Positions 138 to 11,558 of a stretch of DNA of 64,000 bases are shown in pieces. A program made the translations under genes and the position numbers. The stretch's first letter is position 1. The number at the start of each line of letters is the position of its first letter. The stretch is from Methanolobus sediminis (lineage in GTDB: Archaea > Halobacteriota > Methanosarcinia > Methanosarcinales > Methanosarcinaceae), in NCBI RefSeq assembly GCF_031312595.1, contig NZ_CP133592.1, positions 248,001 to 312,000 of the forward strand, given 5' to 3'. The notes under the pieces are model-generated. The model saw only the letters and a list, made by a program, of their open reading frames with translations. It did not search any database and was not told where the DNA came from.

Positions 138-1358
138 TTAACAGCTAAGTTTCTCCATACAAGCTGCAAGTCTTTTGATTCCCTCTTCAATGTCATCAGG
201 ATCAGAATTAGAATAGTTCAATCTCAGCGTGTTAGAACCTGCTCCTTCAATAGTATAGAACGGACTACCCGGAACAAAGGCAACATTCTCTTTTATTGCC
301 AGGTCAAACAAGTCCATAGAAGAAACGCCTTCCGGCAATGTTACCCAGACAAACATACCGCCTTCAGGTTTTGTATAGCTGATGCCTTCCGGGAAATATC
401 TGGACATCATGTCAACCATATGGTCACGCCTTGAACCGTATGCCGTTTTGATCTTTGAGATATGCCCGTCAACGTCATTGTCCATAAGATACTGGGAGAT
501 AATCCTCTGGGACAGGTAATTAGAATGAAGATCAGCCGCCTGCTTAACAACAAGGAGTTTTTCCATTATATCATTCTTTGCGCATATCCACCCAAGCCGC
601 AGTCCCGGAGCAATTATTTTTGAAAAGGATCCCATCAGAATTGTGTTTTCCAGATAATTCCTGATAGTAGGTACATCCTCACCTGCAAACCTCAGTTCAC
701 CGTAGGCATTGTCCTCAACACAGACAACCCCGTGTTTATCAAGAACTTTGGCAGTTGCCTCCCTTTTTTCTTGTGAGTAGGTAACACCTGAAGGATTCTG
801 GAATGTGGGAACCGTGTAGAAAAGCTTTGCATCACTTTCTTCCAGAGTTTTATCAAGAGCATCAATATCTATTCCATCATCCAGAAGTGGAACTTCCCTG
901 AACTCCGGTTCGAATATTGAGAAAGACTGTATAGCACCGAGATAACCAGGACTCTCTATGACAACCCTGTCCCCTTTGTTAAGGAAAACCTTGCCAATGA
1001 GATCCAGACTCTGCTGTGAACCGTTTGTTATCAGGATCTCAGAAGGATCTATCTTAAGTCCGCTTTTTTCAAGATATCTCTGTGCAATGAATTCACGTAA
1101 AGGCAAATAGCCCTCTGTAGTACTATATTGCAGGACATTCGCAGCATCCTCTGACATGACCTTCGCAGCCGCTGCTGCAAGTTCCTCTGCCGGGAATAAT
1201 GCAGGGTTTGGCAGTCCTCCGGCGAACGATATGATCTCCGGCTGCTGTGTGACTTTCAAGATCTCCCTGATGAAGGACTTTTTGCTGTTCTCCATCCTGT
1301 CAGCAAATCTATAAAATTGTACTGGTTTCTCTATCAAAGTATTTTCATCTGTTGCCAT
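138..1358 (-). CDS. PLP-dependent class I/II aminotransferase (2-aminoadipate/aromatic/valine-pyruvate type)
   Basis: This is a 406-residue fold-type I aminotransferase of the large PLP family that includes 2-aminoadipate transaminase LysN and the MocR-like enzymes. Visible motifs are the substrate-loop 'ISFAGGLPNPALFP' near residue 45, the 'TNGSQQSLDLIGKVF' cofactor phosphate region, 'PTFQNPSGVTYS' with the Asn and Pro of the PLP pocket, 'VEDNAYGEL' with the Asp that holds the pyridine nitrogen, and the Schiff-base lysine in 'MGSFSKIIAPGLRLGW' around residue 248. Length is normal for the family. It is transcribed alone, away from the AbrB gene behind it. The amino acid substrate cannot be fixed from sequence; aromatic or branched-chain amino acids and 2-aminoadipate are all possible. 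Confidence 0.9.
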   Translation of the reverse strand: MATDENTLIEKPVQFYRFADRMENSKKSFIREILKVTQQPEIISFAGGLPNPALFPAEELAAAAAKVMSEDAANVLQYSTTEGYLPLREFIAQRYLEKSGLKIDPSEILITNGSQQSLDLIGKVFLNKGDRVVIESPGYLGAIQSFSIFEPEFREVPLLDDGIDIDALDKTLEESDAKLFYTVPTFQNPSGVTYSQEKREATAKVLDKHGVVCVEDNAYGELRFAGEDVPTIRNYLENTILMGSFSKIIAPGLRLGWICAKNDIMEKLLVVKQAADLHSNYLSQRIISQYLMDNDVDGHISKIKTAYGSRRDHMVDMMSRYFPEGISYTKPEGGMFVWVTLPEGVSSMDLFDLAIKENVAFVPGSPFYTIEGAGSNTLRLNYSNSDPDDIEEGIKRLAACMEKLSC

Positions 1359-1912: not shown

Positions 1913-2953
1913 ATGAAAATAGATCCTACAGACCAAGACATAAAACAGATTTTTGATCGAATTGAAGAAGGAATCTATGATTTACAACCTGATTTCCAAA
2001 GAGAAATTGTTTGGAATAAACAAAAACAGCAAAAATTAATAGATTCTATTATGAGACAATGGCATGTCCCACCCATCCATTTGGTAAGAATAGAAGGCAA
2101 AAACAAATTCGAAGTATTGGATGGAAAGCAGCGCCTTTCTGCCATATACAGTTTCATGAAGGATGAATTCAAATTCGATTCTAATTTAGTTCTAGGGTCT
2201 GAAGAATTAATGATAATTGACAAAAAATACTACTCCGAATTTCCAACTGAGATGAAATTTAGGTTTGATTTTACTCGGATTCGTATATTAGAAGTTTCAG
2301 ATATTAAAATGGATGAAGCGACTGAATTATTCTTAAGACTTAATTTAGGGGTTACTGTTTCAACTTCAGAGAAAAGAAATTGTATATATGGACCAACCAA
2401 AGATTTCTTGAGGGAAATACTTCAGAATCACCCAGCTCTTTTTTCTAAAGAAACGTTAGGATTTTCGAATCTTAGAATGGCATATCAAGATGCATTGGAT
2501 AAAATATATTTTCTAGAAAAGAATGGAAGTCTTGACTCAAAACCAGATGCAAGAGCTTTAGAAAAGATGTATTTTGAAGATGTTGTGCCCGGTGAAGTAA
2601 AAGCAAATCTTATCGAAAATTTAGATTCTCTTGAAAGTATCTTAGATGGTTTTAAATATAAATTAACGAAATCCACCCTCATGAGCTATTATTGGTTTTT
2701 AAGAGAACAGAAAAAAGGTCATACAATAGATGAAATGAAAATGGCTGATTTCTTAAAAGCTTTTGAAGAATGGAGACTTGAACAGAAAAATATTCTCGAA
2801 GCAAACTATATGCCACATCCATATTATCTAGAATTTGAAAATTTATTAAGTGAAGGATGGATTGATCCTTCTTCTCTTAAAGGAAGAAATAAGATATTGA
2901 ATGCTTTTTACAAGCAATATTTAGATAATGGCGATTTTGGAAGTTCAGTATGA
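1913..2953 (+). CDS. DUF262 (ParB/GmrSD-N-like) protein, candidate defence component
   Basis: A 346-residue protein with a DUF262 domain at the N terminus: 'LQPDFQREIVWN' (residues 24-35) and 'VLDGKQRLSAI' (68-78) are the two hallmark motifs, including the DGxQR signature linked to nucleotide hydrolysis in GmrSD and Ssp-type proteins. No HNH/DUF1524 nuclease follows, so unlike full GmrSD it seems to carry the sensor/NTPase part only. The start at 1913 is chosen over the ATG at 1892 because GGAGAG precedes it at the right distance. Its stop overlaps the start of the next gene (ATGA, 2950-2953), so the two are almost surely co-translated and work together. The gene is clearly more AT-rich than the chromosome around it, which suggests transfer. 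A role in phage or plasmid defence is inference. Confidence 0.8.
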   Translation: MKIDPTDQDIKQIFDRIEEGIYDLQPDFQREIVWNKQKQQKLIDSIMRQWHVPPIHLVRIEGKNKFEVLDGKQRLSAIYSFMKDEFKFDSNLVLGSEELMIIDKKYYSEFPTEMKFRFDFTRIRILEVSDIKMDEATELFLRLNLGVTVSTSEKRNCIYGPTKDFLREILQNHPALFSKETLGFSNLRMAYQDALDKIYFLEKNGSLDSKPDARALEKMYFEDVVPGEVKANLIENLDSLESILDGFKYKLTKSTLMSYYWFLREQKKGHTIDEMKMADFLKAFEEWRLEQKNILEANYMPHPYYLEFENLLSEGWIDPSSLKGRNKILNAFYKQYLDNGDFGSSV

Positions 2954-4626
2954 TTACATCAAAGTTTAATGACAATATAAGACACTCCCTCCAAAAATGG
3001 AACAAAAAGAAGTATCCATTAAAAGAAGTATACATTGAAAATATATTCAATTGGAAAAAAACATCTATTATTTTTAATTCCCCTGTTACGGTTATTACAG
3101 GAAAAAATGGAAGTGGAAAATCAACTTTAATTAATGCATTAAAACTTTTATATAATCTTCAAAATGAACGCGATGAATTTGGAATATTATCAAATATTGA
3201 AGATTATCAAATTATTCTTGAAAATCAAAATGATGAAAAAATAGTAGTAAAAAACAAAAAAATAGAACATATGGGCTTTAATTTACCCCATTTAATAGAT
3301 TTAAGTTTTAATGCCAAAAATCACAACTTTTTTAAAAATAGTTCTGGAGTCGATATGAATATTTATTTGGATACTCTGGAGCAATATGACTCAATAGCAA
3401 TTTACCCTGCTAATCTTTTAATTATGAGAGAATTAATTGGAAAACAAATTGTATCTGCTCAAAAAATTATTGATGAAGAAAATCCTGAAATTGAATATTA
3501 TCATATAGAACTTAATGATGGTACTACATATGATTCTTACACAATGGGATCTGGAGAATTCTTTGTAAATCAACTTTTGTGGTCATTTGAAAAATTACCG
3601 AGTAACAGCATTGTTTTAATAGAAGAAATGGAAAATTATCTTCATCCAGGTGTCCAAAAAAAGTTAATAGAAATACTATATGAAATTGCAGTAAGGAAGG
3701 AGATACAGTTTCTACTAACGAGTCATTCTCCTACTATTATAGAATATATTGATGAAAAATCCCGCACTCTTGTAAAAACAAATTCAGAGTCAATTGTTAA
3801 CTGCATTAATAATTGTACTGAATGGGTCGCAAAAGATATTCTAGGAGAGGACAATGAAGTTGTGGAAGTATTGGTGGAAGATCAAAAAGCATTGGATTTA
3901 GTAAAAGCAATTATTTCTAAAAAAAATGCTCAGATGTTAAAGCAATTATCTTTTAAAATTTGTGGTGGGGAATCGAGTATTGTAAAGTATATAACCTTAA
4001 CTACAAAACTTACCATAATATCTTCAAGAACAATAGGTGTTCTGGATGGGGATATATCGTTTACCAAAATAATATCCTCGTTTAAAGTACCAGGATCAGA
4101 ACCACCTGAATTACTAATTATAAGATATGCCGAACAAAATTATAATCGAATTGCAGAAAAATTAGAAATTGAAGAAGACAAAGTAAAAGACAGTTTTAGC
4201 TCTGCAAAGACGATTCAAGATCATCATGAATGGGTTACCAAGATTTCCTGTGATTTAGGCGTAGATAAGGATAATTTATGGAAAATAGTGTCATCAATGT
4301 GGGTATTTAATAATTCAGAAATACCTTTGTTAAGCTTACCAGGATCAGAACCACCTGAAATACTAATTCTCAAATGTGCCGAACAGAATTACAATCGAAT
4401 TGCAGAAAAATTAGAAATTGAAGAAGACAAAGTAAAAGACAGTTTTAGCTCTGCAAAGACGATTCAAGATCATCATGAGTGGGTTACCAAGATTTCCTGT
4501 GATTTAGGCGTAGATAATGATTATTTATGGAAAACATTGTCATTAATATGGGTATCCGATAATCCAGAATTAGTAGATGAATTTTATCGTTCTTTTAGTA
4601 GTAGTTTTGGAAAACTGATGTGTTGA
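2950..4626 (+). CDS. SMC/OLD-like ABC ATPase with TOPRIM-like domain and duplicated C-terminal segment
   Basis: A 558-residue protein. The ABC-type ATPase core is complete: Walker A 'GKNGSGKST' (51-59), signature-like 'MGSGEF' (199-204), Walker B 'IVLIEEMENYLHPG' (221-234) and the H-loop 'LLTSHSP' (255-261). After it comes a TOPRIM-like region: 'VEVLVEDQKA' with Glu310 and 'GVLDGDIS' with Asp366 and Asp368, the acidic residues expected in OLD nucleases and in the DUF4435/AriB part of PARIS. The tail holds two near-identical 83-residue units starting 'PGSEPPE' (381 and 464). It is translationally coupled to the DUF262 gene. The layout resembles OLD, Gabija or PARIS ATPase-nucleases, but pairing with DUF262 is not a system I can name. 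A nuclease role is inference from the TOPRIM residues. Confidence 0.8.
   Translation: MITSKFNDNIRHSLQKWNKKKYPLKEVYIENIFNWKKTSIIFNSPVTVITGKNGSGKSTLINALKLLYNLQNERDEFGILSNIEDYQIILENQNDEKIVVKNKKIEHMGFNLPHLIDLSFNAKNHNFFKNSSGVDMNIYLDTLEQYDSIAIYPANLLIMRELIGKQIVSAQKIIDEENPEIEYYHIELNDGTTYDSYTMGSGEFFVNQLLWSFEKLPSNSIVLIEEMENYLHPGVQKKLIEILYEIAVRKEIQFLLTSHSPTIIEYIDEKSRTLVKTNSESIVNCINNCTEWVAKDILGEDNEVVEVLVEDQKALDLVKAIISKKNAQMLKQLSFKICGGESSIVKYITLTTKLTIISSRTIGVLDGDISFTKIISSFKVPGSEPPELLIIRYAEQNYNRIAEKLEIEEDKVKDSFSSAKTIQDHHEWVTKISCDLGVDKDNLWKIVSSMWVFNNSEIPLLSLPGSEPPEILILKCAEQNYNRIAEKLEIEEDKVKDSFSSAKTIQDHHEWVTKISCDLGVDNDYLWKTLSLIWVSDNPELVDEFYRSFSSSFGKLMC
4090..4587 (+). repeat. 249-bp in-frame tandem duplication inside the ATPase gene
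   Basis: Copy 1 (4090-4338) and copy 2 (4339-4587) start with the same 'ccaggatcagaaccacctg' and are 249 bp (83 codons) apart, so the frame is kept. In the central 150 bp only about five to seven bases differ, several of them synonymous; the ends have drifted more. This looks like a recent duplication already under some selection for protein sequence, or one being homogenised. It could also be an assembly or strain-variable repeat. Confidence 0.95.
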
Positions 4627-5580: not shown

Positions 5581-5742
5581 TCAGTCGTTACCCGCAGGAA
5601 GTTTATCTTTATCTAAGATCACATAACCGTGTGATTCCAGATAACTGATAATGTCCTCTATTTTGAAGCTATCAATATCTAGCTGTGGCCTCTTTTTCTT
5701 CTGTTGGTATTCCTGCAATGCGTTTAACTGTGTTTGTAACAC
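5581..5742 (-). CDS. Possible 53-aa small protein overlapping the 3' end of the replication gene
   Basis: A reading frame in the +1 register relative to the primase gene starts at a GTG (5742) preceded by AGAAG, overlaps the primase end by 71 bp and runs to TGA at 5581, just before a hairpin. The part beyond the overlap reads like a real protein: 'DIDSFKIEDIISYLESHGY' then 'VILDKDKLPAGND', an amphipathic helix and short strand. No homolog comes to mind. It could be a translationally coupled last gene of the operon, or an alternative C terminus of the primase made by +1 frameshifting. Chance is not excluded because the frame is short. Confidence 0.4.
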   Translation of the reverse strand: MLQTQLNALQEYQQKKKRPQLDIDSFKIEDIISYLESHGYVILDKDKLPAGND

Positions 5743-8254
5743 CTTCTATGTTGTCATATTTCATCTTATGGCAGTATTCCATTGAAATCGGCACAACATC
5801 GGAACATGTTATTGATTTATTCATGACTCTTTGCCAATCCTTGCAGAAACGAGCAATTTTTAACAGGACAGAATCTTCAATTTTCACAGATTTCACGTTT
5901 TTCACGTTTTTCACACTTTCACATGAAGAATCAAAAACCTCCCCGCACATATAGATATAATTTGTGTGTTCATGGCAATTGATATCGTTTTCACTTTTTT
6001 CACACGTTTTTTTATCCTCCGTGTGAATATGTGAAATGTGTGAAATTGGTGAATTTTGTGAAAAAGTCCGTTTATCGTCATTCAAAACCAACCATTGTTT
6101 TTTGCTGCCATTCTGAACAACTGACTTTATTTCTCCAGATTCCAGCATGGTTTCAACGACTTCATCAAACTCACGTTTTTTAAGTCTTGAGTATTTTAAA
6201 AGGTCACTTCTCCCTAGTGTTCCGGCATTCTTGAGTAATACGCTTCTCACTTTCTCGATCTGGTTATTTTTGACATCTTCCTGAAGCCTGTGTACAGTTT
6301 CAACAAACATCGGGAGGAAATACTCAATAACTATCCTACATGATTCTTGCATTGTTTGTAACTGTATGCAATGTGACGGTTCATTTTTGCCGAGTTCTAG
6401 TAGCATAGCAATTTTGAGAATATGAACCTGATTTCTAGCCCAGCCCATGCTTAGAGTATTGTCACCTGAATCTAATACGGTTTCTTCCATAGTTTCAGTT
6501 ACCTTGTTATAGTACTCGAATGCTTCAGGGATCACATCAAATTCTAATTCATCAATCCCTTTCATATGGTCCCACATTGTGATAACTCTCGTAACAATAC
6601 TCGCAAATGCTGTCCGATCTTCCTCATTTGCCAATTGTAACGGTTTTCTAGGTCGCTTATATTTTGGGTGGCAAAACAGGAATCTGGGGCCGTACCCCGT
6701 GTTCACATCTTCTAAAGTCATATTTGCTGCAAAATTATCTGGCGTTGTTCCGTATAGTTTCGTGATAAAAGGATTTTCGATAACAACCTCACGTTTTTTG
6801 TTACCTTTTTCCTTTGCTAAGGTCTTTCTATAATCGGCACAGTCATACAATGCACATTCGCATTCAAATATACCATCATTGTACTTTTTATGCATCTTTT
6901 GAAGCAGTCCAACAACTTCATCTCTTATGAAATTACAATGTGGTGTATCCTGTAGCAATTCAAGGTATCCCTCTAGTGAATAATCATCGTTGTAAAGCTT
7001 CGTTTGAGTACATGACTCATAGACTAATTTCGTTTTATCTAATGCAGTTGATTTTCTGCTCACACTAGACAGGCCTAAGATAAAGAACCATAAATTAGGG
7101 TTTATCGTTCCTTGCTGCAATTTCAGGCTAACCTTACCTTGTGTACATGCAGACAACAACCACAGCCCAGACACAAAAATATAGTCCTTATACGTATCAG
7201 ACAAACCGGAAAGCCATTTAACATACTCATTTAAAAAATGGTCATTATCAACGTTAATTATCAATCTTAAATCGTTGATCTCTGCACCCATTTCCTTTAT
7301 TTCTTCAAGTGAGTATGTTTTTATGTTTTCTTCTCCCCATTCCTCATATGCTGGCTCTTCCTCACCTGAATAAAACTCAGATAAAACCGAATCCGCCTTA
7401 ATAGTGCTTGTCTTTGCAGGAATGGCTTTTATCTGACTGATTTCATATATTGAGTATCTTTCACTGTATGAATCACCAAAAGCAAGCTTGCACATTAACA
7501 ATAATTCTGCATCTGTAGCACCATTAACTTTTAGTTCTGCAAATAGATGTAAAGTGCGCTGCCTGCCATCCATATTGTGAAAAACTGTCAAATCATGATA
7601 CCAGGGATTAGGAATTTTATTACCTTCTTTGTCCTTCCCTAAGTCCTCTTTAACAAAAACAGCGTTAAAAAACTCTTTAAACGTCCTTCTGCACTTATTT
7701 AAAGTTGTTTTCAATTGTTCAAATGTATAAAGAAGGTCTTTAATTCTGCCTATCACAGCAGGCGGGATATCGGGCCGTTTGGTCAAATCACCATCAATAT
7801 GGTAAACCTCACCTGATACATGAACGGAAGGTGATAGTACAACGTTACCAGCTTCACCAAGTAGATCTATTCCCAATGGCTTTGAATGCTTAAGCTCAAA
7901 GTCAGGATTGAATTTAAACATCCAATGCCAACGACCAGGAGTTCTAAATTGCTTCACCCAGTCGGATGTATCAATGTCTTTTAGTATGTCGTCCCACATT
8001 CCTTTTACATACCAATCAACATCTATCACCATTAAATCAGACAATTTTCCACAAACAGCACCTATGTTGTAACTTTGGTTCAATATGTAGCGTGTTACCT
8101 CGGCATCACTCATAGGTTCTTTTAACTTTGACCAATCCTTCTTCACTGGACGCTTTCCGGCAGATGTCCCGGTGCTGTTTGGCGGTGTAAGGGGGTGTGT
8201 AATAATCCCTGCATTGCTGTAAGTCGTTGCAGCTTCTGCTATAATACTACTCAT
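5672..8254 (-). CDS. Prim-pol / DUF3987-type helicase replication protein of a mobile element
   Basis: An 860-residue replication protein. The N-terminal ~180 residues match bifunctional DNA primase/polymerases of archaeal plasmids and viruses: 'GKRPVKKDW' (33-41), 'VIDVDWY' with Asp78 and Asp80 as metal ligands, 'RTPGRWHWMFKF' with the conserved His, and 'VLSPSVHVSG'. The middle holds a helicase-like P-loop, 'ILGLSSVSRKSTALDK' near residue 395, in the DUF3987 style where GxxxxxKS/T is kept, followed by 'LLQDTPHCNFIRDEVVGLL' as the Walker B region. The C terminus has a winged-helix segment ('GRSDLLKYSRLKKREFDEVV') and a polar tail. It overlaps the gene before it by 8 bp. It would prime and unwind the element for replication. 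Compare the pRN1/pTN2-like Rep proteins; exact family needs a profile search. Confidence 0.8.
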   Translation of the reverse strand: MSSIIAEAATTYSNAGIITHPLTPPNSTGTSAGKRPVKKDWSKLKEPMSDAEVTRYILNQSYNIGAVCGKLSDLMVIDVDWYVKGMWDDILKDIDTSDWVKQFRTPGRWHWMFKFNPDFELKHSKPLGIDLLGEAGNVVLSPSVHVSGEVYHIDGDLTKRPDIPPAVIGRIKDLLYTFEQLKTTLNKCRRTFKEFFNAVFVKEDLGKDKEGNKIPNPWYHDLTVFHNMDGRQRTLHLFAELKVNGATDAELLLMCKLAFGDSYSERYSIYEISQIKAIPAKTSTIKADSVLSEFYSGEEEPAYEEWGEENIKTYSLEEIKEMGAEINDLRLIINVDNDHFLNEYVKWLSGLSDTYKDYIFVSGLWLLSACTQGKVSLKLQQGTINPNLWFFILGLSSVSRKSTALDKTKLVYESCTQTKLYNDDYSLEGYLELLQDTPHCNFIRDEVVGLLQKMHKKYNDGIFECECALYDCADYRKTLAKEKGNKKREVVIENPFITKLYGTTPDNFAANMTLEDVNTGYGPRFLFCHPKYKRPRKPLQLANEEDRTAFASIVTRVITMWDHMKGIDELEFDVIPEAFEYYNKVTETMEETVLDSGDNTLSMGWARNQVHILKIAMLLELGKNEPSHCIQLQTMQESCRIVIEYFLPMFVETVHRLQEDVKNNQIEKVRSVLLKNAGTLGRSDLLKYSRLKKREFDEVVETMLESGEIKSVVQNGSKKQWLVLNDDKRTFSQNSPISHISHIHTEDKKTCEKSENDINCHEHTNYIYMCGEVFDSSCESVKNVKNVKSVKIEDSVLLKIARFCKDWQRVMNKSITCSDVVPISMEYCHKMKYDNIEGVTNTVKRIAGIPTEEKEATARY

Positions 8255-10209: not shown

Positions 10210-11406
10210 TTACTCATTGCTTTGTTTAGTCGCACTTAAGGCACTTAATAACAGTTCGGGGTGTTGTTTCAATTTTTCAAGTATAGCATCTATGGTTTGT
10301 TCGTTTGTGCTTACTGTATCTGTCGTTAATGGTAAACCACAGAAACCACAGAACATAGCATCTGGTGGTATCATCTTGTGACATCTGGGGCACTCTTCAG
10401 CCTTCAAACGTGTATCTCTCTTCTCTATCTCAATTCCATTCTTTGCAAGTACGGCAGCTTCCATATCACGACCTGATAAATGAACATATACGCTTGCCAT
10501 ATTGGAATCTGGAACCCATCCGAGATATTGTTTCATTTGTTGTTCTGTAAAGTCTCTTGCTAGCTCTGTGGCTTGTGCATGTCTAAAAGCATGAGGATTT
10601 ACAGGTTTCTTGATTCCTGCCCTCCTCCCTGCTGTTTTAAGGACAGAACGGAATGATGAAACGCTTAACTGTGCGTGTGGTGGTCGAAGCTGACACCATA
10701 AGAATGCTTCACGGTTATTCCTCTCTGGGTGGGTCGTTAGCCATTGATTTAGGTACATTGAAGAGAAGACAACCAATATCCTGCGTGCTCCAGTCTTCCC
10801 CTGTGGAAATTGGATATACATGCCCTTTTCGTGTGGTTCAACGTGTTTTAATTTTAGGCTTAACATTTCACTTAATCGAGCACCTGACTCATATAACAAG
10901 GAGATAAGGGCTTTATCCCTAGGATTAAGAGCATTATCAATTAAAGTTGAAATTTCATCCCTTGTAAGAAGATCATCTGGTAGCTTTGTCTGTGACCGTC
11001 TATTCCCTGTCTTGATGCTTTTTGCAAGCTCATCCATATTTGCAAACTTCAAAAGCGTCTTAAGTCGGACCTTATAGACCTTTTTAGACGTGGCTGATAA
11101 ATCAAGTCCTTCAATTGAAATGAGTATCTCTTCTATGTCCTCATAGTTAAGCTCATTAACTGGCTTGATTATGAACTGACCGAATGTGCGTAATGCAGTG
11201 ACATGGTTTCGGATAGTATAAGGAGATGAACCGGATATTTTGTAAGAATTAATGTAACGAGTGTACAGTTTAACATTGGATTCGGGTGTTGTGCTTGCAA
11301 TTAAATCTTTAAAAAGTCCATCTGCCGATGCCCTGACTCTTTCTTCCTCGCTATCATACAGCCTTTTTTCTTCATTCGGTTTGGTTTTGTCTGACACAGT
11401 TATCAC
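10210..11406 (-). CDS. Tyrosine recombinase/integrase with C-terminal zinc ribbon
   Basis: A 398-residue tyrosine recombinase. The N-terminal SAM-like core-binding domain covers about residues 40-125 ('SSPYTIRNHVTALRTFGQFI'). The catalytic domain shows Arg in 'YESGARLSEMLSL' (near 174), Lys in the beta-hairpin 'QFPQGKTGARRI', 'HAFRHAQATELA' (H-x-x-R, near 272), and the nucleophile Tyr in 'ASVYVHLSGRD' (near 306). A C-terminal zinc ribbon follows: 'CPRCHKMIPPDAMFCGFCG'. This fused ribbon is common in archaeal XerA/integrase-like recombinases of plasmids and proviruses in Methanosarcinales. It is the likely integrase of the element whose replication genes lie next to it. No tRNA or direct repeats for an attachment site were seen, so the site of integration is undefined. 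Confidence 0.9.
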   Translation of the reverse strand: MITVSDKTKPNEEKRLYDSEEERVRASADGLFKDLIASTTPESNVKLYTRYINSYKISGSSPYTIRNHVTALRTFGQFIIKPVNELNYEDIEEILISIEGLDLSATSKKVYKVRLKTLLKFANMDELAKSIKTGNRRSQTKLPDDLLTRDEISTLIDNALNPRDKALISLLYESGARLSEMLSLKLKHVEPHEKGMYIQFPQGKTGARRILVVFSSMYLNQWLTTHPERNNREAFLWCQLRPPHAQLSVSSFRSVLKTAGRRAGIKKPVNPHAFRHAQATELARDFTEQQMKQYLGWVPDSNMASVYVHLSGRDMEAAVLAKNGIEIEKRDTRLKAEECPRCHKMIPPDAMFCGFCGLPLTTDTVSTNEQTIDAILEKLKQHPELLLSALSATKQSNE

Positions 11407-11429: not shown

Positions 11430-11558
11430 CAATAACCTATCTTATGTCAGCAAATATAGTAACCATGAAATTGGCTTCAAGTCCTGATACATTTTAAATC
11501 TTTTCATCAGTAGAATACCAGCTCATTCTTGATTATATTATAGCGGAAAGGATTTTAC

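Follow-up and report, generated by a model that had tools for sequence, protein, structure and literature searches.

The pair and its carrier element

The window, by which we mean the whole 64,000-nucleotide stretch analysed here, comes from NZ_CP133592.1 of the methanogen Methanolobus sediminis and holds two adjacent genes, P1 and P2, whose reading frames are both open and intact. The original prediction singled them out as an AT-rich pair joined by an ATGA overlap, and this description holds: the GC content of the pair is 27-32% as compared to about 41% in the window, and the two genes overlap at 2950-2953. The features of the pair and of the element around it are listed below.

1298..1308, no strand: left att-like direct repeat, 11 bp, TGTCAGCAAAT (BLASTN against siblings)
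1913..2953, plus strand: P1, DUF262 protein of 346 aa; GmrSD_N, predicted ParB/Srx-type NTPase fold, all-helical C-terminal domain
2950..2953, plus strand: ATGA start/stop overlap of P1 and P2 (from the sequence)
2950..4626, plus strand: P2, 558 aa; OLD-like ABC ATPase (about 1-300), TOPRIM (about 300-380), HxW C-terminal helical domain
3877..3879, plus strand: codon of TOPRIM Glu310, invariant in 33/33
4045..4053, plus strand: codons of TOPRIM Asp366-Gly-Asp368, with D366 and D368 invariant in 33/33
4071..4319, plus strand: duplicated C-terminal 83-aa segment of P2, first copy (PGSEPPE...DHHEW)
4320..4568, plus strand: duplicated C-terminal 83-aa segment of P2, second copy
5672..8254, minus strand: Prim-Pol/DUF3987 replication protein of the carrier (Pfam; related proteins in sibling genomes)
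10210..11406, minus strand: tyrosine integrase of the carrier (Pfam Phage_integrase, 2e-24)
11445..11455, no strand: right att-like direct repeat, 11 bp, TGTCAGCAAAT (BLASTN against siblings)

Profile searches, which had been proposed as a check, agree with the first reading of both proteins. P1 had been described as carrying DUF262 motifs and no HNH domain; Pfam places GmrSD_N on it at 5.8e-21 and finds no HNH/DUF1524 domain, and the motifs QREIVW, DGKQR and FxRLN are all present. Across the family alignment QR, W34, DG-QR, F140-x-RLN, E153, R155 and N156 are invariant (numbering from 1913). An in-frame ATG at 1892 was dropped as the start of P1 in favour of 1913, because the Met at 1913 is kept in 32 of 34 relatives, GGAGA lies just 5' of it, and the archaeal homologue L174 has an identical GGAGA-CACAA-ATG start context.

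For P2, the predicted full set of ABC ATPase motifs was recovered, namely Walker A GKNGSGKST, signature GSGE, Walker B LIEE and H-loop SHS, together with the acidic residues Glu310, Asp366 and Asp368. Pfam matches it to AAA_21 (6.7e-23) and also to AAA_15, and its best PADLOC profile is HEC-04 (141 bits, 1.1e-41). The core residues are invariant in a 33-member alignment: G51, N53, G54, G56, K57, G202, E203, W211, E226, H259, E310, D311, D366, D368, P381 and H426. AlphaFold2 models of P1 (pLDDT 87) and P2 (pLDDT 88) were compared by Foldseek, with Noc/ParB CTPase domains as the best matches of the former (probability 1.00, E 1.3e-3) and the retron-Eco8 effector, GajA and Thermus OLD (TsOLD) as those of the latter (E about 1e-11), at TM-scores so modest (0.2-0.35) that these structural likenesses hold at the level of fold only.

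The window's P2 has a peculiarity of its own, in that its C-terminal segment is present as two in-frame tandem copies of 90% nucleotide identity. They differ at 25 nucleotides, 22 of which lie within non-synonymous codons, and are identical at the centre; the copies are thus recent, with ends that diverge fast or have been exchanged. No such tandem duplication was found in L174, the archaeal pair nearest to the window's (P1 62% identical), or in the other relatives aligned with P2, where the segment is single, and it could have altered or impaired the P2 copy of the M. sediminis window. We note that the P2 of L174 (3816-5393), with its single C-terminal segment, does have a three-fold FDLEPPEPD-type repeat in its ATPase part.

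The carrier of the pair is a 10.15-kb integrative element. In five congeneric genomes (L272-L276) the empty site is intact, the sequence of 1-1307, with the aminotransferase gene, running straight into that of 11445 onward (BLASTN), and it is on the basis of these empty sites and of the repeat at both ends that we regard P1-P2 as cargo. The original prediction had placed the pair beside a mobile element; the mobile element is confirmed and the placement corrected, since the att-like repeats and the empty site put the pair inside it. The element was inserted into this aminotransferase gene at its 5' end (1298-1358) and gives it a new N-terminus.

In 24 congeneric genomes no close homologue of P1 was found; one of them has a weak match (E 2e-8), which is to a DUF262 protein that does bear an HNH domain. 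Related Prim-Pol/DUF3987 integrative elements in siblings (L281 4949-13099, L278 and L279) hold other cargo in the place of the pair, and none of the related elements L278-L281 gave a match to P1-P2. In L281, two DNA methyltransferase-like genes, as read from the sequence, occupy the side where the window has the pair.

P1 and P2 form a co-inherited, mobile pair

When IMG/VR was searched with a small DUF262 alignment, three matches stood out (E about 1e-50), and in all three a P2-type gene lies directly downstream. With P1 and these three proteins, chosen as the best DUF262 matches, a collection of 85,000 species' genomes was scanned, yielding 80 loci among the matches listed, with a gap in score. 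Above the gap stand at least 33 genome loci and the 3 viral-contig loci, every one of them with P2 downstream on the same strand (36/36). Below it, a P2-type gene was found in none of the 47 distant DUF262 loci listed when the next two ORFs were checked, and the ATPases identified beside these listed loci are Menshen NsnB. The expectation that homologues occur as a pair is thus borne out among the matches listed, where the gene-neighbourhood comparison across archaea and bacteria has P2 directly downstream in every close locus. The junctions are mostly 4-bp overlaps, the rest overlapping slightly more or nearly abutting. A single-sequence scan of viral contigs with P2 gave no match, and the plasmid, phage and E. 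coli collections yielded DUF262 or ATPase relatives, none of which, by the level or coverage of the match, pointed to a P1-P2 pair.

The carriers comprise two archaea (the window and L174), Pseudomonadota, Bacillota, Actinomycetota, Verrucomicrobiota and Hydrogenedentota, with Pseudomonas thivervalensis DSM 13194, Shewanella marina and Paenibacillus oceani among the cultured ones. Trees of P1 and P2 built from 34 pairs have 22 of 31 splits in common, and the patristic distances are correlated (Mantel r 0.69, a value that none of 5000 permutations reached). Because the trees agree in this way in spite of the mixture of host phyla, P1-P2 travels as a unit: it is an obligate, co-inherited and horizontally mobile pair of archaea and at least five bacterial phyla. 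The P2 proteins of L095 and L180 are identical. In all of 33 loci the pair is poorer in GC than its distal flanks, the difference being 2 to 22 points. Two apparently decayed copies, L189 with a frameshifted P1 and L204 with a truncated P2, suggest turnover.

As to a possible defence-island setting, a descriptive listing of the two ORFs closest to the pair on either flank includes reverse transcriptases that match retron/DRT-type models, endonucleases of the Mrr kind, type II methylases and a SMODS-associated SLATT_4 gene, along with resolvases and the conjugation gene TrbI.

In the DUF262 tree all 15 pair members tested form one clade (support 100/99), nearest to DUF262 proteins that are partnered with SIR2. 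The type of partner, whether SIR2, HEPN, NsnB/C or P2, largely follows the DUF262 clade, and this tracking supports a division of labour between sensor and effector.

Two further groups of DUF262 loci were observed. Plasmid DUF262 proteins of Sinorhizobium and Hymenobacter (L046 5004-6906 and L058 4001-5879) are coupled to a SIR2_2 gene; they align along most of P1 and lie near the pair clade in the tree. At L050, L052, L054, L081, L083 and L227, mostly archaeal, a DUF262 gene is followed by a RiboL-PSP/MAE_28990 HEPN gene in an arrangement like that of PD-T4-2, and in L050 and L052 the HEPN partner has no match among the PADLOC models.

A proposed mechanism and its rivals

We favour, as reasonably probable, the reading of P1-P2 as a candidate immune system against viruses (or MGEs), made up of two genes that ride as cargo on a mobile element, in which P1 gates the P2 nuclease. 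P1 would use the binding or hydrolysis of NTP to recognise a cue of foreign DNA or infection, which by analogy with GmrSD and SspE might be modified DNA, and would then gate, or license, a P2 dimer. The ATPase state of P2 would in turn set free the TOPRIM, as a metal-dependent nuclease, to attack nucleic acid, either DNA (as for OLD and Gabija) or tRNA (as for PARIS AriB), so that the invader is restricted or growth is stopped by abortive infection. There are precedents for both halves of this scheme: sensing by DUF262 has analogies in SspE, BrxU and GrwAB (PMC10952713; PMC12137116), and the TOPRIM effector of Gabija acts on DNA (PMC10952713), while AriB of PARIS, which works with an OLD-like ATPase, cuts tRNA (PMC12409363).

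The original suggestion that the DUF262 protein senses and the TOPRIM cuts fits the folds and the residues, and from these we infer it. For P1 the sensor role stays at that level because stand-alone relatives of P2 (IbfA) defend without a DUF262 protein.

The first of several alternatives makes a toxin of the P2 nuclease, which might cut tRNA as AriB does, and sees in P1 mainly an inhibitor, a chaperone or a trigger-binding lid of P2 instead of a sensor of DNA modification, defence then consisting in the release of P2. The overlapping operon with P1 in first place would suit such an arrangement, as would the ability of TOPRIM nucleases with OLD-like ATPases to cut tRNA (PMC12409363) and the action of stand-alone IbfA by abortive infection (PMC12111858). 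We nonetheless think it unlikely, as the NTPase signature of P1 (QR, DGQQR, FxRLN) is intact and invariant, and a mere inhibitor would not need one. Less probable still is a housekeeping role, in which a ParB-like protein and an SMC/OLD-like ATPase would serve the upkeep or the exclusion of elements, in competition between mobile elements, and not the protection of the host. The predicted ParB-like fold of P1, the location of the pair inside an integrative element and the presence of members in predicted viral contigs are all compatible with this idea; against it, the contexts of the carriers vary widely between loci and across several phyla, the pair has no match in the related elements L278-L281, and the catalytic residues of the TOPRIM are invariant.

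It has also to be asked whether the pair is a shortened Menshen, that is, NsnAB with the TOPRIM fused to NsnB. Menshen couples a DUF262 protein with an OLD-like protein (PMC10952713), and NsnA is the best PADLOC match of P1. In a genuine Menshen of the same order (L051), however, NsnA, NsnB and NsnC score 386, 365 and 228 bits; in the window the match to NsnA reaches 108 bits and covers the DUF262 part only, as compared to the full length in L051, that of P2 to NsnB is 63 bits and local, and NsnC has no match in P2. The gene after P2, which begins some 300 bp further along and is oppositely oriented, matched no Pfam or NCBIfam family and gave no PADLOC match to NsnC. The trees are equally discordant with this reading, the NsnA clade being separate from that of P1 with the same support (100/99 each) and P2 grouping away from NsnB at 100/100. 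On the scores, the trees and the absent NsnC we rejected it, and consider it highly improbable.

Taking P1-P2 as a gated nuclease system, we tentatively entertain a wider idea, for which we would claim something short of an even chance. The pair would represent an undescribed, cross-domain form of two-gene immunity, in which a DUF262 protein, acting as an NTPase switch with a ParB fold, directly licenses an ATPase-TOPRIM nuclease of the OLD family; DUF262 would be a modular platform whose effector (SIR2, HEPN, NsnB/C or ATPase-TOPRIM) is exchanged by clade, and IbfA/HEC-04 might be sensor-less offshoots of it. What began as a loose remark on domains, a DUF262 beside an OLD-type nuclease, is now a defined and conserved two-gene family with cultured carriers, and since these carriers are named, sensing by DUF262 and licensing of the TOPRIM are directly testable. 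The pair also points to DUF262 as a common module for sensing, with effectors that are swapped.

Comparison with known systems

The original prediction had listed no characterised system consisting of just a DUF262 protein and an ATPase-TOPRIM protein, and indeed no model of PADLOC (2023), NCBIfam (2026) or Pfam covers P1-P2. The paper on defence systems found to name both DUF262 and TOPRIM has only Menshen, Dazbog and PD-T4-2 as DUF262 systems without DUF1524 (PMC10952713). The pair is therefore probably, if not certainly, new as a DUF262-based defence candidate with an OLD-family effector, given a partial coverage of the literature.

Among systems that share the first gene, Menshen (NsnABC) likewise has an OLD-like ABC ATPase after its DUF262 protein, but comprises three genes including NsnC, has a shorter NsnB without the TOPRIM segment and belongs to a distinct DUF262 clade. 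GmrSD, BrxU and SspE have in common with P1 a DUF262 with QR, DGQQR and FxxxN motifs, whereas P1 has no DUF1524/HNH and the nuclease is a separate TOPRIM in P2; a GmrSD-type IV restriction system was rejected, as a DUF1524/His-Me nuclease domain is present in neither protein. In PD-T4-2, DUF262-SIR2 and DUF262-HEPN a DUF262 protein is again followed by a one-gene effector, which is HEPN or SIR2 rather than an ATPase-TOPRIM, and the DUF262 proteins are of other clades; PD-T4-2 itself was rejected because the partner in the window is an ATPase-TOPRIM, not HEPN.

Other likenesses are on the side of P2. Its fold, an ABC ATPase with a TOPRIM, is that of OLD, GajA and the retron-Eco8 effector, and the E...DxD residues of OLD are present; here a DUF262 protein takes the place of the UvrD helicase (GajB) or the retron as partner, and Gabija was rejected on the same ground, the neighbour being DUF262 with no GajB UvrD-like helicase. 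PARIS (AriA/AriB) also combines an OLD-like ATPase with a TOPRIM nuclease, which in P2 are joined in one polypeptide and accompanied by an extra DUF262 gene. A PARIS/DUF4435 reading of the P2 C-terminus was rejected, as the TOPRIM segment has no match to AriB.

The closest likeness is to HEC-04/IbfA, the best match of P2, which has the same ATPase-TOPRIM architecture and with which most of the catalytic motifs align. IbfA, a member of the Hma-embedded candidate family HEC-04 from R64/pUA1135 plasmids, was found by experiment to be antiphage as a single gene, by abortive infection (PMC12111858). This is the principal difference: among the loci listed the P2 clade always follows a DUF262 gene, and a DUF262 partner is absent from the ten stand-alone HEC-04/IbfA-type relatives examined. 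In the P2 tree, whose outgroup is distant, the stand-alone nucleases (L254 2929-4485, L047 4782-6377, L092 and L093), gathered by their similarity to the window's P2 or a near relative, form one branch beside the archaeal pairs (93/94). As that branch adjoins the archaeal pairs, DUF262 may have been lost in the IbfA lineage, although the choice of the set by similarity and the distant outgroup limit this reading; it would be a possible evolutionary link between the two-gene family and the stand-alone IbfA/HEC-04 nucleases.
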